From a virus: 63,549 nucleotides of DNA. Location: IMG/VR virus record IMGVR_UViG_3300023501_000009, positions 1-63,549 of that record, one strand, 5' to 3'. This document shows, piece after piece, positions 45,734 to 63,549 of this stretch; position 1 is the first letter of the stretch; each line of letters begins with the position of its first letter. Below the pieces are notes generated by a model, which was not told the origin of the DNA, searched no databases, and saw only the letters and a list, made by a program, of their open reading frames with translations. The position numbers and the translations under genes are program-made.

Positions 45734-48700
45734 ATGGCCGTAGGATCAACAGAGATTAGAAATATCTTAGAGGCATTAGAAAATGATATTTTCATTAAAG
45801 ATCTAAGTATTGAACACCGAAATATGTTCTTTGTTCTTATTAGACAAATCTTGTCTGAGCAAACTTCTGTTGATTATGCATTCAAGACTAGTTTATTAAC
45901 GGTATTACACAAGTTAAGAGACCTTGACCAAAATCCTAGTTATCAGAAAGACAACCAGACATATTTACAGGATTACATTAATGAGGTTAAACCTTACCAC
46001 ACAAAGATAAGGGAATACCTACTTAATTATACTAAGTTAGAGAATAACTACGTAGGCAACAGTGACTTTGATTTGCCAGCATATTACCACACCACTGTAA
46101 ACCGGTTTAGGAGTCCTAGTGGAGAGTTTACTGTTGACCCGGATCTACTGTCAACACAACCAGAATATACAGACTGGAACACTCACCACAAGTATCAAGT
46201 ACAGAGCATTGATATCTACCAAGGTGGAGTAGGTTACACGCAAACTCCCACAGTAACAATTACAGGTGGGGGAGGCACCGGCGCAACGGCTACAGCAAGA
46301 ATAGTTAACGGTATAGTAACATCTATAACTATGGTCACCAGAGGAGTCGGTTATACAACTACTCCAACAGTAACTATAGGACCTGCACCTATTACGGGAA
46401 CAACAGCAAAGGCGTATGTACAATTAGGCAACAACACACTTGTAAGAACTTTTAGTAATACATTAAAATTTGACCGTATTACTTATAGCCATACTATTAA
46501 CGACTGGGCCGCTAGCACGGCATACGCTGAAGACGATTATATTAGATACCTAGGCAAAGCGTATCAAGCCACAACAGGCTTCACTAGTGGAAGCACGTTT
46601 AGTTTAACAAACTTAACAGAACTAGGTGGTAGCGAATTCGAAAACGCCAATGATAGGATTATGGCATTATACAATCCTACTAGTGGAATGTTGGGTAGAG
46701 ACCTAACTCAGTTAGTTGATGGATTAGAATATCGAGGCGTTCTCGTGCAGGACCTAAACACAACATACAGTGATGCAAGCAGTATTGAAGCAAGTACGGA
46801 CTATTACGATACTTTTATTAGTAGTACGTTCGTAGACGCAGATGGCTCATCTGTAACGCTAGGGTTAAAGGCAGAAGATATTAATATAGATGGCGCCGCA
46901 TTTGTTGATGAGTTCAGTTCGTTTGCTCCGCAGGAGTTACTACCTGGCAGAGTTTTTGATACTTTAGACATACAGGTATATCAAACATCTGGCAACGATA
47001 TCGAATCAGACGGTAGCGGAAGTCTGCAACACTTAATAACTCATACCGGAGACGGAAGCGCAACAACGTTTAGTTGGGCAAGTGCTCCTGGGGGCCACCA
47101 ACTCTTTGTTTACACTCAAACTCGAGGTGACCTACACAATCCTACGCACTACACAACAGATTACACTAATAGAACAATAACTTTAGGAACTACTCCAGTT
47201 GCCGGTGACATTGTATTCATTTATGTTATGGATATTGTTGGAAATAATGAAATTTTTACCGGTGAATATGCCGGAGACGGAAGCACAACAGATTTTATTG
47301 TTAATGCTGACTATGCATTAACAATAAATACGTTAGTACTAGTAGACAACGTAGAGACAGCACACACTGTAGTTGATAGCGATCCAGGACAAGCAATTAT
47401 TAGGTTTAGTCCTGCTCCGTTGGCAGGAACACACATTGACGTCCACGTGCATAATGGTGCAACGGGCGTAAGAGATGTTTCTTACCCACATTCTCAATAT
47501 GAGACACTGACAGGTGGAACATACCCAACTGACTATACAATAACTCTAGACAAAGAATTACAATATGAAGGTCCGTTGAGTGCGATGCTTATCTTAGAGC
47601 TAAATGGAACAAGATTACGCCCATCTAATAATGCTTATTATACCGGTGATGGATCAACCACAGTGTACACAGTAAGTGGCAGTGATGGAACATTAGATCC
47701 GGATACGGTTGCAGACAACGATGTAGAAGTGTATAATAATGGTACGAGACTTGTGCAAAATATTGATTATACACTAGCACCGAGTGACGGTAGTAGTTTA
47801 CGTTATATTACATTCATTACAGCACCAGTAAGTGGCAACAGAGTTGTTATATCTTTACTAACAGGACAACAATTTAGAATTAATTCAAGTAGCGAGATTT
47901 TATTAGACAGTGGCTTAACTTTAGCGGCAGGTAATACTATAACTATACACACTTTTGCTAACCATGATCCGCTACGTATGAGAACACAGGTTTTCGTTGG
48001 TACTACAACAGGTACAACAACAGTTACAACAGGGTATGATGAACTTGGGTATGAGGCAGATACTTTTGACGGAGAAACGTCATTAGTTGTTACAACACCT
48101 GAATATACCTTAAGCAGAGGCGTAACAAATGCAACTTTTCTCTGGGTTGCTGTAGATGGTGTTAGAATACACCCAACAGTGGACTTTGAAATAACTGGCA
48201 CTAATAAGATATTATTGGGAGACCACTTAAATGTAGCTGGTGATACAGTAATAGCAGTAACGTCGTTTACTGAAAACGTAAGACCAGATGCATTTGGATT
48301 TAGAATAGGGCAAGATATATTAGGCAATGTAATTTACAAACGTATTAGTGACCAAGAGGCTACTACATTGTCTAGAACGCTACAGATTACAGATACTGAA
48401 ATACACGTTACTAATGCAAGTGTTTTACCAGATCCAGGTATAACAGCCAACGATCCAGGCATTGTGTATATTGACAGTGAACGAATTACATATTATGCAA
48501 TAGACAAAGCAAATAACACATTATCGCAGTTAAGAAGAGGAACATATGGTACAGGCGCAAAAAATACTCACCTGGCAGGCAGTACAGTGCAGGATGCAAG
48601 TACACAGCAGAATGTACCAGCTACAACAAAGATATGGTATGACATAGATGCAGGAGGCCAGGTTGGTCCGGACGGAAGCACACTGGTGGTTAAGACTACA

Positions 48701-52827: not shown

Positions 52828-53829
52828 ATGGCATACCAAACCGGAGACACGATATTAGATGACGAATACAATGTATTTGCCACAGGATTAATAGGCGGTG
52901 GCTCCACAGATAGTGCAAACATAAACAATGTCTGGGGCATCGGACAAGCAGACAGAGGTTACGGCCAGGCAACTACACTGAGTGCTGTTACAGCAGGATC
53001 CACAGTAACTGCTACACAATGGTCTACTATGTTAGCTCGTGTCACTAGTGCGGCAGACCATCAGGGATCTAGCATTTCATCTATGACAAATCCTAGTGCT
53101 ACAGACATTATTGAGGTTATCGGCACAATTAGTGCCAATGTTAGCACTATACACACTAATAGGAAAACTGCTGTAGCAACCGGTTCTAGTACAACATCAA
53201 ACATAGATAGCACAGGATCCTGGTCAACACAGGCACAACAAATTATTACACTTACGTGGGCAGATGCAGATGAAGTAAGATATTTCTTTAATGCAGGTGG
53301 ATACATACATATTAATCCCACAGTTATTGGCTACACAGACGATGCAAAAGCACGTAGTTGGGACGCATTGGTACAGATGGCAGGAAGTCTACAGTTTAAG
53401 TCAGACGCTACAACAGTTACTGGAGAATCAAATAGTATTACAGTTACAGATGCCCATGCATCAAGTCCTGCATCCGTAAGTGCGTTAGGTTATTATGACC
53501 TAACTACAAGCAATCAATTGCTGTTTGACAAGACATTGACTACATTTGCTAGTCCTTATATTGTAAATACAGCAAATAACGTTAAGGTTTATGTGAAATC
53601 AAATGGGACTCAGGGGAGTTTTAGTGACAACGGAACAATTATTACAGTTACAATAGATTATAATGACGCAAGTGAGGATAGTACCTTTGATAAGACTGAA
53701 TATAGTGACTTAGATATTATGGATGGCACAGTACGAAATGAAATTTCTAGTGTTCCACCTAGCACAACATATTTGACTCAGAGTTGGTCTAATCCAACAA
53801 TTGCGTTGGGTAGTAGTACACATACATAA
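52828..53829 (+). CDS. Virion module protein, copy 1 (homologue of the gp7 C-terminus)
   Basis: 333 residues opening MAYQTGDTILDDEYNVFATG, then NINNVWGIGQADRGYGQ, YFFNAGGYIHINPTVIGYTD and DDAKARSWDALVQMAGSLQF. It shares these blocks with the last 320 residues of gp7 and with the next gene. The shared module probably folds as an independent receptor-facing or decoration unit; the role is inferred. GGATG precedes the ATG. Confidence 0.72.
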   Translation: MAYQTGDTILDDEYNVFATGLIGGGSTDSANINNVWGIGQADRGYGQATTLSAVTAGSTVTATQWSTMLARVTSAADHQGSSISSMTNPSATDIIEVIGTISANVSTIHTNRKTAVATGSSTTSNIDSTGSWSTQAQQIITLTWADADEVRYFFNAGGYIHINPTVIGYTDDAKARSWDALVQMAGSLQFKSDATTVTGESNSITVTDAHASSPASVSALGYYDLTTSNQLLFDKTLTTFASPYIVNTANNVKVYVKSNGTQGSFSDNGTIITVTIDYNDASEDSTFDKTEYSDLDIMDGTVRNEISSVPPSTTYLTQSWSNPTIALGSSTHT

Positions 53830-53844
53830 TAGGAAGAAATAAAG

Positions 53845-54849
53845 ATGGCATACCAAACCGGTGATACAATACTAGATGACGAATACAATGTATTCGCTAC
53901 AGGGCATACTGGAGGAACGGCAACCGACAGTGCAAATATTAACAACATTTGGGGAACTGGGACAGGAGACCGGGGTTACGGTCAGTCTGGAACATTATCA
54001 GCAGTTACAGCAGGCAGTAACGTAACTGCAACACAGTGGGCTACGGCTCTTTCAAGAATAACCACAATGGGCAGTCACCAAGGGTCTAGTTTAACTTCAA
54101 TGACTTCTCCTAGTGCAGGAAATGAGATTGAAATCATAGCCGCAATTAGCACAAACATTAGTACATTACATAGCAACAAAACTAATGCGGCGGCCCAAGG
54201 ATCAACTGCTTCTTCAACCTTTAACTCGTCAGGCAACTGGACAGTAAGTAATATTCAGGAAGTAACTTTTACATTTAGTTCAGCAGATCAAGCAAGATAT
54301 TTCTTTAATGCAGGTGGTACAATTGTATTAGATCCGCAAATGGTAGGTTATACAGATGATGCCAAAGCAAGATCCTGGAACGCATTAACACAGATGGCTG
54401 GGTCTCTGGTATACAGTGCAAACGGTAGCGTTATAAGTGGTGGTGCCGATTCTATCACAGTTACAGAAGCACACACAAGCTCTCAAGTCACATTAGCAAC
54501 TACTATTGGTTATTATGACATGACCACAGGTTATCAGACAATACTTCAAAGAGATTTAACATCAGCTGGTAGCCCGTACATTAGTGGTGCCGCAAACAAT
54601 ATTAGGATTGAAGCAAAATCTAACGGCGCACAAGGATCAAACAGTGATAGTGGCAGTATTGTAACATTTAAGATTAGCTTCTTAGACGCTTCAACAGACC
54701 AAACTTATGATAAGCCAGAATATGATCCTCTTGACATAATGGACGGTGATGCTAGGGTTGTGGCCAGCAATGTCCCACCAAGTGCAACGCATTTAACTAC
54801 TACTTGGGGCACAGTCACAATGGCACAAGCAACGGCGGCAGTCGCATAA
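53845..54849 (+). CDS. Virion module protein, copy 2 (homologue of the gp7 C-terminus)
   Basis: 334 residues opening with the same 20 residues as its neighbour (MAYQTGDTILDDEYNVFATG), then NINNIWGTGTGDRGYGQ, RYFFNAGGTIVLDPQMVGYT and DDAKARSWNALTQMAGSLVY. Downstream blocks (SPYISGAANNIRIEAKSNGA; DIMDGDARVVASNVPPSATH) parallel copy 1. The central part has diverged substantially, so the duplication is not very recent apart from the N-terminus. GGAAG precedes the ATG. A terminator follows. Confidence 0.72.
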   Translation: MAYQTGDTILDDEYNVFATGHTGGTATDSANINNIWGTGTGDRGYGQSGTLSAVTAGSNVTATQWATALSRITTMGSHQGSSLTSMTSPSAGNEIEIIAAISTNISTLHSNKTNAAAQGSTASSTFNSSGNWTVSNIQEVTFTFSSADQARYFFNAGGTIVLDPQMVGYTDDAKARSWNALTQMAGSLVYSANGSVISGGADSITVTEAHTSSQVTLATTIGYYDMTTGYQTILQRDLTSAGSPYISGAANNIRIEAKSNGAQGSNSDSGSIVTFKISFLDASTDQTYDKPEYDPLDIMDGDARVVASNVPPSATHLTTTWGTVTMAQATAAVA

Positions 54850-54873: not shown

Positions 54874-54901
54874 TTTGGCACTAGAAATAGTGCCATTTTT
54901 G
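54874..54901 (+). terminator. Terminator closing the structural operon
   Basis: GGCACTA (54877-54883) and TAGTGCC (54888-54894) form a 7-bp stem with a GAAA tetraloop, followed by ATTTTTG. It separates the fibre genes from the accessory cluster. Confidence 0.9.
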
Positions 54902-54903
54902 TA

Positions 54904-54932
54904 TTGACTATTCAACAATATTAATGTAAAAT
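54904..54932 (+). promoter_or_regulatory. Host-type sigma70 promoter of the accessory cluster (leaderless)
   Basis: TTGACT (54904-54909), exactly 17 bp, then TAAAAT (54927-54932). Only six bases separate the -10 from ATG 54939, so the predicted start coincides with the start codon and no ribosome site is present: a leaderless mRNA is likely. The -35 hexamer and spacing equal those of the glutamine riboswitch promoter. Confidence 0.75.
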
Positions 54933-54938
54933 ACCAAC

Positions 54939-55262
54939 ATGGACAAAGTAGATAAATTAGAACAGTTCGCACAGGCTCGTTTCGAACTTGCTGTAGCAAA
55001 AAAGAATCTTAAAGAACGTATAGATTCAGATCTATACGTTGCACACAATGGTGGTATGTTTAAGGCAGATCAAGGTCTAATAGCATTTCTAAATGCCTGG
55101 GAAGAGGACACTATCTATATGGTAGACACCTACGAAAATCCTATTCAGGTACAAAGAACAACATTATTAGAATATGCTAAACAATCATACCAACAAAAGA
55201 TTAATGCATACCATGTAGAATATGAGCAACTCAAACAAACCAGGCGAGCAACCCAAGTCTAA
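54939..55262 (+). CDS. Small helical protein, first gene of accessory cluster
   Basis: 107 residues, helical and charged: MDKVDKLEQFAQARFELAVA, KKNLKERIDSDLYVAHNGGM, FKADQGLIAFLNAWEEDTIY, then a C-terminal coiled coil-like YQQKINAYHVEYEQLKQTRR. Similar short proteins occur in marine T4-like phages but have no known function. The ATG is directly behind the -10 box (leaderless). It overlaps the following gene by 41 bp. Confidence 0.65.
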   Translation: MDKVDKLEQFAQARFELAVAKKNLKERIDSDLYVAHNGGMFKADQGLIAFLNAWEEDTIYMVDTYENPIQVQRTTLLEYAKQSYQQKINAYHVEYEQLKQTRRATQV

Positions 55263-56052
55263 AGGTGTACTAATGTTCGCACGTAATTCTAAACTGGATT
55301 ACATGCGCATAGCACAACATAATTGTGGATTGATAAAAGAACATTTACAGTTACCAGTAGCAGTAATTACTGACACCAAGACACGTGATGAATCAGACAC
55401 CACCATGTTTGACCATGTCATCATGGATAATACTGAAGACACGAACAAAAGGGTGTTTTACTTTAACGGCGAATCATTGTCAACTCCCTGGATAAATGGC
55501 AGTCGCAGTGATGCATATGACCTAACGCCTTTTGATCGGACACTTTTACTAGATGCTGACTACTTGATAATGTCAAACAACTACAAAAAATTGTTTGATC
55601 TGGATATTGAATTTACATGTCACTACAGTGTGTTAGATGTTACCGGGCAGAACTTATATAACTCCGACAAGAGGTTAAACAGTTACACTATACCAATGGT
55701 ATGGGCAACAGCAGTTTTGTTCGACAAGTGCAACTTTTCAGAAAATGTATTTACGATGATGAAGTTAGTTAAAGAACACTGGGAGTATTATTCATCACTA
55801 TACCAATTTAACCGCAAAGTATTTAGGAACGATTTTGCACTTAGTATAGCATTACACATACTGGGAGGCTATGGCACAAATACATATAGCATACCATGGG
55901 CATTGCCCACACTGACATCTAGAGCAAAGATCATTGACTACAATGAACGTGGGATAAAATATGTCTACGAAAAACAAAAGCATAACTATGTAGGCAGGGT
56001 CCGACAAGACATACATATTATGGATAAAAAGTCGTTAGTGGATTTTATATGA
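55222..56052 (+). CDS. GT-A-like glycosyltransferase family protein 1
   Basis: 276 residues. GVLMFARNSKLDYMRIAQHN and LPVAVITDTKTRD form the nucleotide-binding start, and DRTLLLDADYLIMSNNYKKL supplies a D-x-D motif (LLDADYL) near residue 115. The layout suggests a GT-A fold transferase or a relative. WATAVLFDKCNFSENVF and FRNDFALSIALHILGG resemble the acceptor half. The donor and acceptor are unknown. It is paralogous in outline to the next gene and overlaps it by 4 bp. Confidence 0.6.
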   Translation: MSNSNKPGEQPKSKGVLMFARNSKLDYMRIAQHNCGLIKEHLQLPVAVITDTKTRDESDTTMFDHVIMDNTEDTNKRVFYFNGESLSTPWINGSRSDAYDLTPFDRTLLLDADYLIMSNNYKKLFDLDIEFTCHYSVLDVTGQNLYNSDKRLNSYTIPMVWATAVLFDKCNFSENVFTMMKLVKEHWEYYSSLYQFNRKVFRNDFALSIALHILGGYGTNTYSIPWALPTLTSRAKIIDYNERGIKYVYEKQKHNYVGRVRQDIHIMDKKSLVDFI

Positions 56053-56900
56053 CATCAGGGTACGTGACAATAGCACAGAACAATAGTACTACTGACTACT
56101 TAGAGTTAGCGTATCTGCAGGCTCTGAGTATTAAACTAACACAGAAAAAATATACCAACTATGCAGTACTGGTTGATAAACAAACCAGACTGGCAATGAA
56201 GGAAAAGTACCTGGCTGTATTTGACCATGTAATTGATTTACAACAGGACGATGCCGTCGATGATGACTGGAAACTGGCCAACGAATGGCAGGTGGGTCCA
56301 TTGACTCCCTTCAAGGAGACAGTAAAAATTGAATCAGACATATTATTAACCACCAACATAGATCATTGGTGGTCTGCAATGCAGGAGCGTGAGGTCTGCA
56401 TTTGTACAAATATACGAGACTGGGAAGGCAACATCAATAACACGATGACTTACCGTAAATTGTTTGTGGAAAATAATTTATTAAACACGTACAACGGATT
56501 TAGTTATTTTAGGTATGGGCATACCAGTCAGGAGTTCTGGCGGCAACTAAGGTATGTATACCAACATTGGCCAAGATTCAGAGATAGAATACTTAAAAAT
56601 TGTAGGGAAGATAGGGTTAGTACCGACGTTGCATATGCAGTAACAGCAAAGCTAGTAGGAGAAGAACGGTGTTATTTACCACATGCTATACCAAGTTTTG
56701 TGCATATGAAAGGTGCAGTTAACAGTTGGCATCCTAATTTAAACTGGCAAGATCATGTACTAGCACAGTTTGGCAATGATGGGGTGTTAAGTTTGAACAC
56801 ACAAAAGCAGATGTATCCTGTGCATTATTTTATAAAGGACAAAGAGTTTGTCAGACAAGCAATCCAAAGCCTGGAGCGAATTTTCCAAAGCCGTAACTGA
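56049..56900 (+). CDS. GT-A-like glycosyltransferase family protein 2
   Basis: 283 residues. GYVTIAQNNSTTDYLELAYL, YTNYAVLVDKQTRLAMKEKY and ETVKIESDILLTTNIDHWWS reproduce the arrangement of the preceding protein, with ESDIL in place of the DAD motif. TYNGFSYFRYGHTSQEFWRQ and VSTDVAYAVTAKLVGEERCY follow. The active D-x-D is reduced to E-S-D, so catalysis is uncertain. It may be a substrate-binding relative. Start ATG overlaps the previous stop. Confidence 0.55.
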   Translation: MTSGYVTIAQNNSTTDYLELAYLQALSIKLTQKKYTNYAVLVDKQTRLAMKEKYLAVFDHVIDLQQDDAVDDDWKLANEWQVGPLTPFKETVKIESDILLTTNIDHWWSAMQEREVCICTNIRDWEGNINNTMTYRKLFVENNLLNTYNGFSYFRYGHTSQEFWRQLRYVYQHWPRFRDRILKNCREDRVSTDVAYAVTAKLVGEERCYLPHAIPSFVHMKGAVNSWHPNLNWQDHVLAQFGNDGVLSLNTQKQMYPVHYFIKDKEFVRQAIQSLERIFQSRN

Positions 56901-57213
56901 GTTTATTCCACCTAAAGCTATTGTAGAAACATACAGAATATATTATAATAGTGAAGGAGAAGTAACTAAGCAAGTTCATAATGAACCGGGAGACCCCACT
57001 GGTCCTTGTTTGGAAATGAACTGGAACGAATATAATACAGTTATGCATAAGTTACATAACTGTATTATTAAGGACGGCACGATAACAGATATACCACATA
57101 AGGTAAAGACTAAATTACTAAAACCAAGCAATTCAGGCTACAGTGTTATGCGTAACAACCTAGCATTTCCTGATGACAACAATCCGGAGTATTGGGACCA
57201 TGGACATTATTGA
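56848..57213 (+). CDS. Hypothetical protein in accessory cluster
   Basis: 121 residues from a TTG codon, chosen because AAAGGA lies 8 bases upstream and no ATG precedes the conserved body. It overlaps the end of the previous gene by 53 bp. Body: VETYRIYYNSEGEVTKQVHN, EPGDPTGPCLEMNWNEYNTV, ending LAFPDDNNPEYWDHGHY. The beta-rich central part is reminiscent of small phage proteins of unknown role. No motif recognised. Confidence 0.55.
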   Translation: MSDKQSKAWSEFSKAVTEFIPPKAIVETYRIYYNSEGEVTKQVHNEPGDPTGPCLEMNWNEYNTVMHKLHNCIIKDGTITDIPHKVKTKLLKPSNSGYSVMRNNLAFPDDNNPEYWDHGHY

Positions 57214-58123
57214 TGTAGCAGATTTAGATGTCATATTTTTAACGTATGACGAGCCCAAGAAGGAAGAGTTCTGGATTAAAATACAAAACATAGTACCTTG
57301 GGCCAAACGTGTGGACGGTGTGCAAGGCAGTGATAATGCACACAAAGCCGCAGGTGAAGCAAGTGACACATATAGGTTTGTGTTAATAGACGGTGACAAC
57401 TTGCCTGATCCAGACTTCTTTAACATACAGTTAGAGCTAGATGATACAAATCGAGACTGTGTGTTTAGATGGAGAGCCCGCAATGAGATAAACGGACTTA
57501 TGTATGGCAATGGTGGTATCAGTTGCTGGACAAAAGACTTTGTTGCCGATATGCGCACACACGAAAACTCAGACGGTAGTGATGATACCGCAGTGGAGTT
57601 TTGTTTCGACAAACGATATTTGGCAATGCATAATTGTTATAGTACTACCTATCCTAACCAAACACCTTTTCAAGCATGGCGAGCAGGATTTAGAGAAGGT
57701 GTAAAGATGTGTTTGGATCGTGGAGTTAAACCATCGCTGTTGGAGTTTGATAAAAAAGTAAACAATAGGAATTACGATCAGTTATGTATTTGGCAAAGTG
57801 TTGGACAGGACATAACTAACGGCATCTGGGCAATGTATGGCGCACGACTTGGTACTTACATGACCATGTTGGAAGACTGGCCTTACAAGCGTGTACAAGA
57901 CTTTGTGGAACTAGAAAAGTTATGGGAGTCAGTTAAAGACAACGACCCAGTAGAACACAGTAAGATATTGGAAACTGTTCTATCAAAACGATTAGGACTG
58001 CCAATTGTTACACTAGATGCAGAGCAAAGTAAATTTCTAAAGCATCACCTAACCGGAAAACATTTTAACATAAAGCCCATGACCAGAGAAATAGACATTA
58101 TCAGGATTGTTGAAGGCTGGTAA
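57200..58123 (+). CDS. GT-A-like glycosyltransferase family protein 3
   Basis: 307 residues from ATG 57200 (MDIIDVADLDVIFLTYDEPK), preferred over an ATG at 57173 that lacks a ribosome site; GGAG stands 12 bases before 57200. VIFLTYDEP, NIVPWAKRVDGVQG, and YRFVLIDGDNLPDPDFFNIQ (D-G-D motif near residue 75) fit a GT2-like nucleotide-sugar binding domain. FRWRARNEINGLMYGNGGIS and CWTKDFVADM follow. C-terminal half is helical (MTMLEDWPYKRVQDFVELEK). The exact reaction is unknown. Confidence 0.6.
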   Translation: MDIIDVADLDVIFLTYDEPKKEEFWIKIQNIVPWAKRVDGVQGSDNAHKAAGEASDTYRFVLIDGDNLPDPDFFNIQLELDDTNRDCVFRWRARNEINGLMYGNGGISCWTKDFVADMRTHENSDGSDDTAVEFCFDKRYLAMHNCYSTTYPNQTPFQAWRAGFREGVKMCLDRGVKPSLLEFDKKVNNRNYDQLCIWQSVGQDITNGIWAMYGARLGTYMTMLEDWPYKRVQDFVELEKLWESVKDNDPVEHSKILETVLSKRLGLPIVTLDAEQSKFLKHHLTGKHFNIKPMTREIDIIRIVEGW

Positions 58124-59310
58124 TGGAATTAGCAGAGTTAACCGATGATCGAGTAAACTTACTCGTAAGCAAACAAGACAGGTGGTATTGTGACACCAAT
58201 GCTGGAAGATTGTTTGACATCAGTTGTGGCAATCAGACATTTATCTGGGGATACAACCACTGGAATATACTCTGGGCAGTACATGGTATAACAAATAAAG
58301 TATCATGGGTAAACTACAAGGCAAGCGAAAGCACCGAGTCTGTAGATTTACTTGCCAACAATATCACACAGGAAAGTGGATTACACAGTGTAGCATGGGC
58401 AGTTAGTGGTACTGATGCCGTAGAGCTTGCGTTTTACCTTAAAGATTTGTATTTTAAAAAACATAATCCCAATAGACAGGAAATAATATGTTTTGCACCA
58501 GGGTATAGTGGTACAAGTCTTTTGCCTAGTATATTACGTGGTGAATTCGAGGTTCCCTGGTGCCACATTGTGGATACTGGTATATGGCCAACTATAGTCG
58601 CAAGACAACATCATGAAAATGCCGCTTTACAACAGGTAGAGGATCTATTAAAGAATAATCACAATATCGGCACAGTGTTTATGGAGTCCATACCCTGGAT
58701 AGAAAAATTGCGCCCCTGGTCGGATTCCTGGTGGCATGAAGTGCGTAGGTTGTGCGACAAGTATGAATGTTTACTGATTGTTGATGATGTCATGGGCGGC
58801 TATGGTAAAACAGGTACACGATTTACACACAATGCACAGGGCATCTTACCTGATCTGGTAATAAGTGGTAAAAGTATTACTGGTGGATACACACCACTAA
58901 GCACAGTGTGTATGAGCGAGGATATCACAAGATCAGTAAGTGCGAAGTTTGGTTTTAGTCACACCTGGAGTCCTAACATGGCAGGAGTTGATGCCGCAAA
59001 CTGGATCTGGAGACATTGGCCAGAAGAAACAGCCTTTAATAATATTACTTCTAGGTTCAACAGTTTAATTACTGAGAGGCTAACAAAGGGTCACATTAAA
59101 CAAGGCTGGCACAAAGGTATTTTGTGTAGTGTTGAGCTAGTTAACCCAATAACACAACTTAAGTTGTTAGAGAGTGGAATAATGCCCAGCGGATTAGGAT
59201 GTTATTATGACAATAATCATTTAACATTATGTGTTCCTGTCGGTATAGAAGATAATGGTTATTGGGACGAGTTAAACGAAAGGTTAGACAATGCGTTTAG
59301 CAACACATGA
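58123..59310 (+). CDS. Class III PLP-dependent aminotransferase (GSA-AM/BioA-like)
   Basis: 395 residues. AVSGTDAVELAFYLKDLYFK is the class III phosphate-binding SGTDA.E.A motif; IICFAPGYSGTSLLPSILRG follows. LLIVDDVMGGYGKTGTRFTH gives Asp221 (pairs with PLP N1), and LVISGKSITGGYTPLSTVCM supplies the Schiff-base Lys250. FSHTWSPNMAGVDAANWIW fits the active-site loop. Family members transfer amino groups between keto acids or act as aminomutases; the substrate cannot be read from sequence. It starts at the previous stop (TAATG). The PLP machinery is complete, so an active enzyme is likely. Confidence 0.88.
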   Translation: MELAELTDDRVNLLVSKQDRWYCDTNAGRLFDISCGNQTFIWGYNHWNILWAVHGITNKVSWVNYKASESTESVDLLANNITQESGLHSVAWAVSGTDAVELAFYLKDLYFKKHNPNRQEIICFAPGYSGTSLLPSILRGEFEVPWCHIVDTGIWPTIVARQHHENAALQQVEDLLKNNHNIGTVFMESIPWIEKLRPWSDSWWHEVRRLCDKYECLLIVDDVMGGYGKTGTRFTHNAQGILPDLVISGKSITGGYTPLSTVCMSEDITRSVSAKFGFSHTWSPNMAGVDAANWIWRHWPEETAFNNITSRFNSLITERLTKGHIKQGWHKGILCSVELVNPITQLKLLESGIMPSGLGCYYDNNHLTLCVPVGIEDNGYWDELNERLDNAFSNT

Positions 59311-59767
59311 ACAACAAAATCATCTATTAATCTGGATTAAACGTTTAGTAATGCCTTACGAAGAATTAGGCGGCAATCGTGTTTGTCCTTATGCACACCT
59401 GGCTAAGATGCGAGCAGTTAATGTACAAATTAGAGACCTTAAAGAACTGCCAGACATTAAGTGTGATGTACTGATACTAATCTGTAGTGAACAGAAGTTA
59501 AGTCATAACAACCCGCTGACACACAACGAACTAAAAGAGCATTGTGCTAGATTAGCAGAACAATATCCTGATATGATATTTTTACCTGACAGTGAAAAAG
59601 AAACACACATTAACGGTGTGCAGACTAATAACGGCAAGTATAAGTTAATACTGTGTCAAAATAAACAGAAACTACTAGGCGCACGTACGCAGTTAGCAAA
59701 AACAGATTATTATACATTTTGGGAACCAGAATACTTAAAGGAGATTGTTGGTGACAGTCTGGACTGA
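59291..59767 (+). CDS. Conserved hypothetical protein between aminotransferase and amidinotransferase
   Basis: 158 residues: HLLIWIKRLVMPYEELGGNR, VCPYAHLAKMRAVNVQIRDL, CDVLILICSEQKLSHNNPLT, then FLPDSEKETHINGVQTNNGK, KLLGARTQLAKTDYYTFWEP. The CPYA segment with neighbouring basic residues is conserved-looking. Family not recognised. It overlaps the aminotransferase by 20 bp and the amidinotransferase by 17 bp, so it must act in the same unit. Confidence 0.6.
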   Translation: MRLATHEQQNHLLIWIKRLVMPYEELGGNRVCPYAHLAKMRAVNVQIRDLKELPDIKCDVLILICSEQKLSHNNPLTHNELKEHCARLAEQYPDMIFLPDSEKETHINGVQTNNGKYKLILCQNKQKLLGARTQLAKTDYYTFWEPEYLKEIVGDSLD

Positions 59768-60722
59768 ATGGGATCCACTTGAAGAAGTTATAGTAGGAGA
59801 TTGCAGACCTACATATCCAGGCGTGCCTGAGTTAGATAAAATACTAACAGAAACAAAAGAGGATTTAGATAACTTAGCCAACTACTTAACTAAGTTAGGC
59901 ATTAAAGTACACCGCCCAACAATAGGCGATCTACAGCCTAGTCAAATATATCCTATTGTGCCACGTGATCAGTATTTGGTATATGGCGATTGTGTATACC
60001 AAACATATACAAGTATGAAGGATAGATACTGGGACGGCTTATGTTATTATGATGTATTTGCACAACTGTTTATGCAAGGACATAACTGGTTAAGTCAGCC
60101 ACCGCCTATACTAGAACAGTTATCCTACCAAATGGTTGCCACACCGTATCATCACGAATATAAAAATAAATTGTTATGGCACACTGCTACAATGTTTAAG
60201 GCAGGTGATAGCATAATTATTAATGACTACGGTCCGGGTAACCAAAATGGGTATGACTGGATGGAGAGAAACTGTGAAGGCACTCTAGTAAAAAACGTAG
60301 ACACAAGACAAGGTCGATGGGGCCACATAGATCAAGGCTTTTACATGACGGATGATGACACAGTGTTTTGTGTTGACATCTCGTGGGTACCACAATGCTT
60401 ACGTAGCAAAACAATTATAGAACTAAACAATAGAACTTTCAAGTATAGTGAAAGTTTAAAAGACATACAACAGGGTAACAGGAAAAATTTATTTACGTGG
60501 CTGGAACAGTGGCAAGGACTCGCACAAGACACAGCATTTGAAAGTAACGTTTTAGTTGTGGACAGCGAAAACATTGTAAGTAGTATAGAGTTACCTGAAG
60601 TAGAAGCACATGGCATAACAGTACACCATGTTCCCGTAAGACACGGCATGTTTTGGGAAGCCGGTATACATTGTTTAACACTTGATGTTAGACGTAACGG
60701 ATCAAAGAGAAGAGTAGTATGA
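59751..60722 (+). CDS. Amidinotransferase (glycine amidinotransferase-like, GME superfamily)
   Basis: 323 residues from GTG 59751, chosen because AAGGAG ends 7 bases before it; a TTG at 59745 would sit on the ribosome site. WTEWDPLEEVIVG, YPIVPRDQYLVYGDCVYQTY, RQGRWGHIDQGFYMTDDDTV and HHVPVRHGMFWEAGIHCLTL match the guanidino-modifying superfamily. Asp (PRDQ), His (GHID) and Cys308 (GIHC) give the usual catalytic set. Relatives move the amidino group of arginine to glycine, lysine or an aminosugar. With an aminotransferase next to it, a guanidino-compound product is plausible but not shown. Confidence 0.85.
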   Translation: MTVWTEWDPLEEVIVGDCRPTYPGVPELDKILTETKEDLDNLANYLTKLGIKVHRPTIGDLQPSQIYPIVPRDQYLVYGDCVYQTYTSMKDRYWDGLCYYDVFAQLFMQGHNWLSQPPPILEQLSYQMVATPYHHEYKNKLLWHTATMFKAGDSIIINDYGPGNQNGYDWMERNCEGTLVKNVDTRQGRWGHIDQGFYMTDDDTVFCVDISWVPQCLRSKTIIELNNRTFKYSESLKDIQQGNRKNLFTWLEQWQGLAQDTAFESNVLVVDSENIVSSIELPEVEAHGITVHHVPVRHGMFWEAGIHCLTLDVRRNGSKRRVV

Positions 60723-62089
60723 CAAAAGGCGATCAAAGCGAATTTATGTCAGCGGCAGAGGCCATGAAGGACCAGTTGGGTCCTAGTCTTTGCTATGCAA
60801 AATGGAAACAAGTAAGTTTGCACCTGCCCACAGGACTTAACAACAGTTGCTATCATCCACCGTTGCACAAAATACCTTTAGCGGCAATACAAAAGAATCC
60901 CAGCGCACTACATAACACAGAGCATAAAAAACAACAACGTAAGTTAATGATAGAGGGCAAGCGTCCTGAAGAGTGTAGTTACTGTTGGGCAATAGAAGAT
61001 GCAGGTAACTTGAGTGATAGACATTATCGTTCAGGTGAGCCCTGGGCACAAATGGATCCTGCCACAATAGACTGGCAAGAAGATGTTATACCTAGTTATG
61101 TGGAAGTCAATTTTAACAACGCATGTAACCTTAGGTGCAGTTATTGTAGCCCACAGTTTAGTTCAAGTTGGGCAAAAGAAGTACAAGACAAAGGTGCTTA
61201 CCCAACAATACAACCACACAATGCACCAGAACACTTTATGGGAGACAGGCGACCTGTTCCTAATAGAGAAGAAAATCCATATGTTGACGCATTTTGGAAA
61301 TGGTGGCCAGAACTATACCCCAAACTAGAACACTTTAGAATGACTGGTGGTGAGCCACTAATGGATCGTAACACATACCGTGTGTTTGAGTACGTGTTAG
61401 CATTGCCTAAGCCTGATTTACATTTAAATGTTACCAGTAACTTCAGTGTTGAGAATGGTTTGTTTATCAAGTACATAGAATACGTTAAGAAGATGTGTTC
61501 GAGCAACTACTTAGAACACTTTATGCAGTATGTTAGTGTAGACAGCATGGGTGTACAAGCAGAGTACATACGTGATGGTTTAAAAATGCAACGCTTGACA
61601 GGATACGTAGAGCATTACCTACGTGAAGTTAAATACAAGAACAGTCTAACATTTATTATTACAATGAATAATTTAAGTGTTATCAGATTACAAAAATTGC
61701 TAGGCTGGATATTAGAATTGCGACGTCAACACAATAAAGAGTACAATAAAATTTGGTTTGATACTCCTTTACTTAGACAACCTGCTTGGCAGAGTTTACA
61801 AATACTACCAGAAAGTTATGCACAACGTCTAGACGAAGTTGCTGACTGGATGGAAGAGAATATAGAATACAGTACAGGTTTTAAAGACTTTGAGGTACAA
61901 CGTATGCGAAGAACCATTGCTTGGATGCGAGAAGGCCAACAACTGGATGGAGAGTACATTAAACAACAAAAGAGAAACTTCTTTTTATTTTTCAATGAAC
62001 ACGATAAACGTAGAAATACAAACTTTTTAGAAACTTTCCCGGAAATGGAATCCTGGTGGTCAGAATGTAGGTACCATGCACAAGTTTAA
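60719..62089 (+). CDS. Radical SAM protein with N-terminal accessory cysteines (twitch-type), copy 1
   Basis: 456 residues. NNACNLRCSYCSPQFSSSWA holds the CxxxCxxC iron-sulphur motif (Cys136, Cys140, Cys143); HFRMTGGEPLMDRNTYRVFE is the GGEP motif that binds S-adenosylmethionine; LHLNVTSNFSVENGLF and FIITMNNLS complete the barrel. The N-terminus has NNSCYHPPLHKIPLAAIQKN and PEECSYCWAIED, an accessory cluster-binding layout. Substrate unknown. The ATG overlaps the amidinotransferase stop. Such twitch radical SAM genes are frequent in marine T4-like phages. Confidence 0.88.
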   Translation: MTKGDQSEFMSAAEAMKDQLGPSLCYAKWKQVSLHLPTGLNNSCYHPPLHKIPLAAIQKNPSALHNTEHKKQQRKLMIEGKRPEECSYCWAIEDAGNLSDRHYRSGEPWAQMDPATIDWQEDVIPSYVEVNFNNACNLRCSYCSPQFSSSWAKEVQDKGAYPTIQPHNAPEHFMGDRRPVPNREENPYVDAFWKWWPELYPKLEHFRMTGGEPLMDRNTYRVFEYVLALPKPDLHLNVTSNFSVENGLFIKYIEYVKKMCSSNYLEHFMQYVSVDSMGVQAEYIRDGLKMQRLTGYVEHYLREVKYKNSLTFIITMNNLSVIRLQKLLGWILELRRQHNKEYNKIWFDTPLLRQPAWQSLQILPESYAQRLDEVADWMEENIEYSTGFKDFEVQRMRRTIAWMREGQQLDGEYIKQQKRNFFLFFNEHDKRRNTNFLETFPEMESWWSECRYHAQV

Positions 62090-63302
62090 TGAAAACACCT
62101 GCCCAGCATTCTATGTAGATGCTACTGTAGATCCTGCAGGATCATATAGCCCATGTACTGCGCTGGGGGGCGGGGCATACAAATTTCCTAATAAAACTTT
62201 TAAGGAGATTTGGGCAAGCCCTGAACTTGAAGATGCTAGACAGCGATCCAGTAACGGCGAACAATTAGACATGTGTCAGAGATGTTGGTCGGAAGAAAAA
62301 TTAGGACATAGAAGTGAAAGAGTAAATCAACTAAGTAGATTATCCTTGTTTGATTTTGTTAACACAGATTACACTAAAGGACCTAAAAACTTAAACATTA
62401 AAGTAAGTAATATATGTAACCTGCGTTGCAGAACATGTCAAAGTTACGACAGTTACTTGTACCACATAGAAGGCAAACACTATGAAGAAAAACATGGGTT
62501 GTCTAATACAATATACACCAGAGAAAAGTTTAAAAAACATTTTACAGATGAGCAGTTGGATGACCTATATAACTATGTTGATAACTTAGAAAAAATAGAA
62601 CTGTATGGTGGGGAGCCACTGTTGGATAACATGGTTCCTAAACTGCTTACTCGCATTGTTGATTCAGGAAAAGCCAAAGACATAGACCTAAAGATAAGCA
62701 CAAACTGCACACATAAGTTGACAGAAGCCTGGCGTAACATTTTACTTGGTTTTAAAAATGTAACTGTTAACATCAGTCTGGACGCAGTGGGCAAAAAGAT
62801 AACCTACGTGAGACACCCAGCAGATTGGAAAATAGTATATAATAACCTATGTGATTTTATCAAACTAGAAGAACAGTCAAACTATAGTGTAAGTATCGTC
62901 CCTGTCATATGTGTAAGTGCTATTAATGTATGGGACTTTCATGAAGTATATGAACAGTTTGTAAAGTTTAAGATGTTTCACAATATTGAGATCACACCGT
63001 TTGTAATACTTGTACAGTGGCCCAGTTATTATTGCGTAAATGTAATACCAGACAAAATTAAACCTATTGTGCGTGAACATTTAGAGTCTCATGTAGAACT
63101 TATAGGAAAAAATAATGTAACGTCTATAGTAAAACTACTTGAAACAAAACCAAAGTTATTTGATGAATCAGAGTTAAATGTCAACACACCCTGGGACGAG
63201 TTTAAGTTTTGGACAAAAGAAAAAGACTTGTATAGAAATGAAGATTATGTTACAATATTTCCTGAGTATGGAAAAATACTCAATGACAATGGAGTATGGT
63301 AA
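62076..63302 (+). CDS. Radical SAM protein with twitch/SPASM-like N-terminal cysteines, copy 2
   Basis: 408 residues. SNICNLRCRTCQSYDSYLYH gives the CxxxCxxC motif (Cys114, Cys118, Cys121); KIELYGGEPLLDNMVPKLLT is the GGEP motif; DLKISTNCTHKLTEAWRNIL and NVTVNISLDAVGKKI follow. The N-terminus (NTCPAFYVDATVDPAGSYSP, then C) plus LDMCQRCWSEEKLGHRSERV carries additional cysteines, typically binding an auxiliary cluster. It overlaps copy 1 by 14 bp. Substrate unknown. The third copy begins immediately after the stop. Confidence 0.88.
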   Translation: MHKFNENTCPAFYVDATVDPAGSYSPCTALGGGAYKFPNKTFKEIWASPELEDARQRSSNGEQLDMCQRCWSEEKLGHRSERVNQLSRLSLFDFVNTDYTKGPKNLNIKVSNICNLRCRTCQSYDSYLYHIEGKHYEEKHGLSNTIYTREKFKKHFTDEQLDDLYNYVDNLEKIELYGGEPLLDNMVPKLLTRIVDSGKAKDIDLKISTNCTHKLTEAWRNILLGFKNVTVNISLDAVGKKITYVRHPADWKIVYNNLCDFIKLEEQSNYSVSIVPVICVSAINVWDFHEVYEQFVKFKMFHNIEITPFVILVQWPSYYCVNVIPDKIKPIVREHLESHVELIGKNNVTSIVKLLETKPKLFDESELNVNTPWDEFKFWTKEKDLYRNEDYVTIFPEYGKILNDNGVW

Positions 63303-63549
63303 TTGAATGATTTAGAATTTAAGAAACAAATGTTAGACACAAAGTCAGCGAGCTTTTGTGGAGCGAAATGGTATAACGCCACCATATGGTTAGGCAGTGG
63401 CATGAGTACCAGTTGTCATCACCCACCAGCACACAAAGTTGATATTGAAGAAGTTAAGCGTAATCCCAAAGCAATACACAACACGCCCGAAAAGAAGCAA
63501 GACAGGGCGCAGATGCAGGCAGGAGAACGTCCGCCAGGTTGTGAGTACT
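63303..63549 (+). CDS. Third radical SAM-type protein, N-terminal part only (cut by right edge)
   Basis: An open frame from TTG 63303, one base past the previous stop, runs off the window. The 82 visible residues include FCGAKWYNATIWLGSGMSTS, then CHHPPAHKVDIEEVKRNPKA, IHNTPEKKQDRAQMQAGERP, ending PGCEY. They align with the N-terminus of copy 1 (LCYAKWKQVSLHLPTGLNNS; CYHPPLHKIPLAAIQKNPSA; LHNTEHKK). GGAG lies about 10 bases upstream of the TTG. The SAM motif would be beyond the edge, so the call rests on this paralogy. Confidence 0.75.
   Translation, partial: MNDLEFKKQMLDTKSASFCGAKWYNATIWLGSGMSTSCHHPPAHKVDIEEVKRNPKAIHNTPEKKQDRAQMQAGERPPGCEY

Follow-up and report, generated by a model that had tools for sequence, protein, structure and literature searches.

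We describe a compact operon that follows the tail-fibre genes of a jumbo phage and recurs, in the same gene order, in many uncultured viruses. As a tentative proposal, held well short of even confidence, we take it to represent a widespread and undescribed operon class: a polymorphic decoration cassette linked to tail fibres, which would combine twitch radical SAM enzymes with three uncharacterised transferases behind a leaderless promoter, and whose cargo here would be a class III aminotransferase (AT3), a compact thiolate-heme oxygenase (p158) and an amidinotransferase with an Asp-to-His change (ADT).

Source phage and gene layout

The DNA analysed, referred to below as the window, is the whole 63,549-bp IMG/VR record IMGVR_UViG_3300023501_000009. 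It comes from a jumbo phage, a myovirus in the T4 superfamily, whose portal protein shares 50-55% identity with the Phosso, Atu_ph07 and PA5oct proteins; structural and tail genes occupy 24.8-54.8 kb. Two neighbouring tail proteins (52828-54849) share the N-terminal start MAYQTGDTILDDEYNVFATG and are apparently recent paralogues. A longer, near-identical record of 289 kb, IMGVR_UViG_3300025502_001322 (G001), differs from the window between position 48,123 and the window end by 4 mismatches, all within the last ~65 bases (63488-63549), which may reflect strain variation or an assembly-end effect. The features of the cassette region, all on the plus strand, are as follows.

54876..54895, +, intrinsic terminator stem-loop, an 8-bp stem followed by a T run (scan and fold, z -4.1)
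54904..54932, +, putative sigma-70-type promoter, TTGACT-17-TAAAAT, with leaderless spacing (6 nt to ATG 54939)
54939..55262, +, sm107, conserved 107-aa protein, function unassigned
55222..56052, +, GTa, putative transferase with an invariant DxD, no family library match
56049..56900, +, GTb, paralogue of GTa
56848..57213, +, sm121, small protein that varies from locus to locus
57173..58123, +, GTc, highly conserved, with an invariant DGD-type motif
58123..59310, +, AT3, class III PLP aminotransferase, cargo
59291..59767, +, p158 (phrog_10325), putative compact thiolate-heme oxygenase, cargo
59745..60722, +, ADT, pentein amidinotransferase-like, with His146 at the place of the triad Asp, cargo
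60719..62089, +, radical SAM protein 1, N-terminal twitch family (NF033640, 318 bits against a cutoff of 170; CxxxCxxC)
62076..63302, +, radical SAM protein 2, N-terminal twitch family (NF033640, 260 bits against a cutoff of 170; CxxxCxxC)
63303..63549, +, radical SAM protein 3, truncated at the window edge (447 aa in G001, where four more follow)

The cassette thus comprises eleven closely packed genes, of which ten are complete and the last is truncated. A preliminary description of this DNA had counted nine overlapping genes and a cut tenth; the packing holds but the count does not. Its overlaps of 1-53 bp are those of the cassette genes, except that the last junction measures 0 bp. The three radical SAM proteins that it listed belong to that family, as judged by the CxxxCxxC motif, although only two of the genes are complete in the window. 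In G001 the unit continues to a total of seven radical SAM genes in a row; the genome as a whole has 14 matches to NF033640. Wherever dN/dS was computable among the compared cassette genes, it was about 0.04-0.23, which indicates purifying selection.

Further downstream on the same strand, an APS-kinase-like gene (Pfam) is found with small membrane-like proteins (L041:11835-12829, at 91.8-92.8 kb of G001), and sulfate activation is a possible function of that region.

A putative leaderless promoter

The candidate promoter lies directly 3' of the terminator, and no Shine-Dalgarno sequence precedes ATG 54939. In two relatives (L002 and L003), the terminator stem and the -35 box are identical to those of the window, and the -10 box ends 6 nt before the ATG in all three. 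The same arrangement, defined as a match of at least 9/12 with the -10 box ending 3-9 nt before the first ATG, occurs in 28 of 72 homologous loci and in 41 of 1112 background genes, a comparison in which the 72 loci belong to the background. It includes near-identical contigs, so that the Fisher value overstates the enrichment. The consensus scan by itself gave 58 matches where 57 were expected, which is not significant; the case for the promoter therefore rests on conservation. The T4 late promoter TATAAATA was also considered: none of its four matches in the window falls at the cluster, and their number is at chance level.

The conserved layout in L002 and L003 and its recurrence in many relatives agree with the earlier proposal of a leaderless, host-type promoter after the structural terminator. 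The proposal of a single operon is likewise upheld, and the arrangement is found again in many relatives. The cassette would be transcribed from this host-type promoter directly after the tail-fibre genes, and its mRNA is probably leaderless.

A conserved backbone with an exchangeable cargo slot

The backbone of the cassette consists of sm107, GTa, GTb, GTc and the tandem twitch radical SAM genes. GTc has relatives in at least 578 viral stretches. Among the best 80 of the resulting uncultured viral loci, 76 carry GTa, GTb and GTc in this order together with radical SAM genes, and 72 carry sm107. The gene order is therefore conserved elsewhere, and the possibility raised in the preliminary description, that it is conserved nowhere, is excluded. 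The GTb sequences form about 40 lineages when clustered at 70% identity, and in 74 of 79 GTb-bearing loci a tail-fibre relative is encoded upstream of that gene, at a distance of at most six genes. By tblastn, sm107, GTa, GTb and GTc had no match in 50,697 named phage records, a set that possibly leaves out near-window records, and the first radical SAM protein matched only two Vibrio phages, at 24% identity.

The transferase-like proteins were compared with family libraries and with each other. GTa and GTb are paralogues by profile alignment (hhalign 98.85% over 243 columns, diverse alignments). DxD-type motifs are invariant in GTa (D111xD113) and GTc (D73xD75), and the GTb consensus at this position is ExD-like. 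Matches to Pfam, PHROGs, NCBIfam or PDB profiles that would identify any of the three as GT-A were not found, the hits to PDB sequence profiles being at chance level; 'GT' is therefore a working label, the DxD-type motif being the one feature behind the putative GT-A assignment. For the earlier term 'GT-A-like', a conserved motif was found but no matching family or PDB profile. Searches for GT8 (Pfam) in the window and GT2 (Pfam) in G001 gave no match.

The AT3-p158-ADT trio is an exchangeable cargo insert in this backbone. It is absent from most cassette loci, where the radical SAM genes follow GTc without it, and as a block within the cassette it was seen in three phages only, namely that of the window and G001, L002 and L003. 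Other loci carry UDP-glucose dehydrogenase, DegT sugar aminotransferase and NAD epimerase (Pfam) as cargo, and some carry canonical StrB1-like amidinotransferases.

AT3 is complete and ADT has a changed triad

AT3 matches PF00202 with 134.7 bits (cutoff 30.5) and has an invariant Lys250 and Asp221, as expected for the PLP lysine and its Asp, which confirms the complete class III aminotransferase of the preliminary description. No listed subfamily cutoff was reached, the best being bioA with 117 bits against 405.

ADT shows profile homology over its full length to HsvA (1e-40), StrB1 (1e-36) and L-arginine:glycine amidinotransferase (AGAT, about 1e-30). It shares with them the catalytic Cys310 (present in 19/19 homologues) and His194 (16/16 homologues of its clade), and it keeps two further conserved Asp residues, Asp75 and Asp196. 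Unlike these enzymes, the ADT clade has a His in place of the triad Asp, which we take to be D254 in AGAT and which was located in ADT by alignment: the position is His146 in 16/16 distinct close phage homologues. The triad Asp is kept in the Campylobacter copies and in a second amidinotransferase of G001 (282302-283318; L046:12303-13319), which lies between radical SAM genes and next to an apparent nucleotide-sugar dehydrogenase gene; G001 also holds DegT, epimerase and oxidoreductase genes. An intact Cys/His/Asp triad in ADT, as described earlier, is ruled out by these alignments; the family, Cys310 and His194 stand, and the catalytic residues are thus absent in part. Since dN/dS of ADT is about 0.08-0.09, the conserved Asp-to-His change suggests altered chemistry rather than decay. 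Two narrow pattern scans of bacterial and archaeal genomes, a weak search, returned no homologues of ADT or p158.

p158 may be a small heme protein

The preliminary description did not mention p158 (158 aa), relatives of which are encoded in at least 125 viral stretches. Named cyanophages carry it, and in two that were examined it is located just before the baseplate wedge genes. Two structure models had mean pLDDT values of 85.9 and 91.9, and for both Foldseek placed structures of AglA first, at a level that is not significant (E 0.06-0.07, TM 0.40-0.42). AglA, a guanidine hydroxylase of the thiolate-heme type, has Cys44 as its axial residue (PMC12866846). The best weak sequence match of p158 members was to Pfam DUF6875 (best E 0.00035, 21.1 bits against a cutoff of 24.5), and in four members the alignment is colinear and begins at profile position 3-4; the window p158 itself had no DUF6875 match in Pfam, and PDB sequence profiles gave chance matches only. 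DUF6875 proteins have been reported as heme proteins that oxidise L-tryptophan (PMC13307353).

p158 thus bears a weak resemblance to the YqcI/YcgG (AglA) and DUF6875 thiolate-heme oxygenases, which give its best fold match and its best weak sequence match. Further candidate common features are its four strands with flanking helices and a Cys after the first helix, Cys32, which is invariant in 34 diverse members and may correspond to AglA Cys44. It differs in being smaller, with a fold E value of 0.06 that is not significant and a Pfam score below the cutoff. We judge the chances roughly balanced that p158 is a heme protein.

Within five genes of 58 distinct p158 loci, ADT was found in 26, AT3 in 18 and tryptophan halogenase in 11. 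The three proteins travel together across unrelated phages, and outside the cassette they have other partners. In one case (L012:2615-4591), the p158 domain is fused to the C-terminus of a tryptophan halogenase. The record of another locus, L009 (G005, 265680 bp, a jumbo phage), holds five tryptophan halogenase and nine radical SAM matches.

Proposed function and alternative readings

Our leading candidate for the function, somewhat short of an even chance, is a polymorphic glycan-type decoration cassette for tail fibres or the host envelope. We favour it because the unit lies beside tail genes, has a backbone of transferase-like proteins and can hold sugar enzymes as cargo. What the sequences show directly is the gene order and its conservation, the promoter arrangement, the selection on the genes and the families to which AT3, ADT and the radical SAM enzymes belong; we infer the shared pathway, the glycan nature of the product, its target, the donor and the chemistry of p158. 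The cassette would make a modified sugar or sugar-like group and attach it to tail fibres or the host envelope: GTa-GTc would transfer the group, the radical SAM enzymes would remodel C-H positions, and cargo enzymes from the exchangeable slot would add functional groups. In the window phage, AT3 might place an amine, ADT might act on that amine with arginine as the donor, and oxidation of the product might fall to p158, possibly a small enzyme of the thiolate-heme type.

The grouping of radical SAM, amidinotransferase and nucleotide-diphosphosugar-transferase genes in phage CP220 speaks for the decoration model. The second G001 amidinotransferase near a nucleotide-sugar-dehydrogenase-like gene, the DegT, epimerase and oxidoreductase genes and the low dN/dS also point towards it. 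Several points count against it: no family or PDB profile backs the GT-A assignment, ADT is without the triad Asp, the trio elsewhere sits with tryptophan halogenases rather than sugar genes, and the proximity to tail genes may reflect an insertion hotspot only. Twitch/SPASM radical SAM enzymes, moreover, often act on peptides and not on sugars. The best argument against a sugar is the link of p158 to tryptophan together with the halogenase neighbours.

The same observations favour the first alternative, possible though unlikely, in which the unit makes a diffusible specialised metabolite (e.g. from tryptophan and arginine) that alters host physiology or competitors. In other phages the trio adjoins tryptophan halogenase, a B12 radical SAM protein and a 2OG-oxygenase-like protein; the halogenase fusion and the weak match to the DUF6875 proteins, reportedly tryptophan-oxidising (PMC13307353), fit as well. 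However, tryptophan halogenase was not found in G001 or in the L002 and L003 records, no carrier, ligase or exporter was recognised, and the backbone is transferase-like and tail-linked. Slightly less likely still, the enzymes would modify side chains of a phage protein such as the tail fibre, with the radical SAM proteins as peptide maturases. These proteins, of N-terminal twitch/SPASM type, weakly match peptide-maturase profiles, tail-fibre genes adjoin the cassette, and the halogenase, hydroxylase, amidinotransferase and transferase are all tailoring enzymes, yet no leader peptide or recognition element was identified, and the UDP-sugar dehydrogenase, DegT and epimerase cargo points to sugars. 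That there is no single pathway, and that an insertion hotspot gathers independent auxiliary metabolic genes, is improbable: the cargo is variable and missing in most relatives, and Timms et al. termed the clusters of CP220 and CPt10 an interchangeable module (PMC2853527), but the backbone genes overlap, have kept their order among deeply diverged phages and are under strong purifying selection, and p158, ADT and AT3 move together among unrelated phages.

Returning to the decoration cassette, the earlier statement that the overlaps imply one pathway is supported only in part: the trio is an insert in three phages of the cassette group, most relatives have the backbone and radical SAM genes without it, and outside the cassette it occurs in different company. 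Since other loci hold nucleotide-sugar enzymes as cargo, a glycan of the envelope or virion that carries a guanidino group is still plausible; the guanidino step itself is uncertain, since the triad Asp of ADT is replaced. If the decoration model is correct, about 40 uncultured phage lineages devote 10-20 kb to unusual radical chemistry tied to tail fibres, and their cargo slot varies much as bacterial surface-antigen loci do. Radical SAM enzymes would then be linked to phage-host recognition or virion masking, and the new enzymes would include an amidinotransferase whose active site is altered and possibly a very small thiolate-heme protein.

Comparison with known systems

The closest described system is that of the Campylobacter phages CP220 and CPt10, in which five radical SAM genes and a putative glycine amidinotransferase were called an interchangeable module in 2010 (PMC2853527). 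In CP220, two nucleotide-diphosphosugar-transferase-like genes lie beside the radical SAM-amidinotransferase cluster. The window cassette resembles these clusters in its row of radical SAM genes, its amidinotransferase and, for CP220, the sugar-transferase-like neighbours. It differs in that their amidinotransferase is only 25% identical to ADT and keeps the Asp, and in that no class III aminotransferase is annotated in their region. By hhalign with single sequences, a weak comparison, the CP220 gene preceding the amidinotransferase showed no homology to p158, nor did the CP220 transferases to GTa-GTc. The open-licence papers searched do not describe the conserved backbone with its promoter, tail-fibre linkage and cargo slot, nor the Asp-to-His ADT clade or the p158 lead.

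The preliminary description was aware of no phage pathway reported with such a combination. That exact combination was indeed not found, but the comparable CP220/CPt10 module has been in print since 2010, and the general kind, phage clusters of radical SAM and amidinotransferase genes, is already known. Another phage rich in radical SAM genes, a T4-like virus with 12 of them, was reportedly described by Nishimura and colleagues. This marine virus, TARA_ERS488813_N000010, was discussed in terms of Fe-S metabolism (PMC5332604). The window phage is like it in being T4-like and rich in radical SAM genes.
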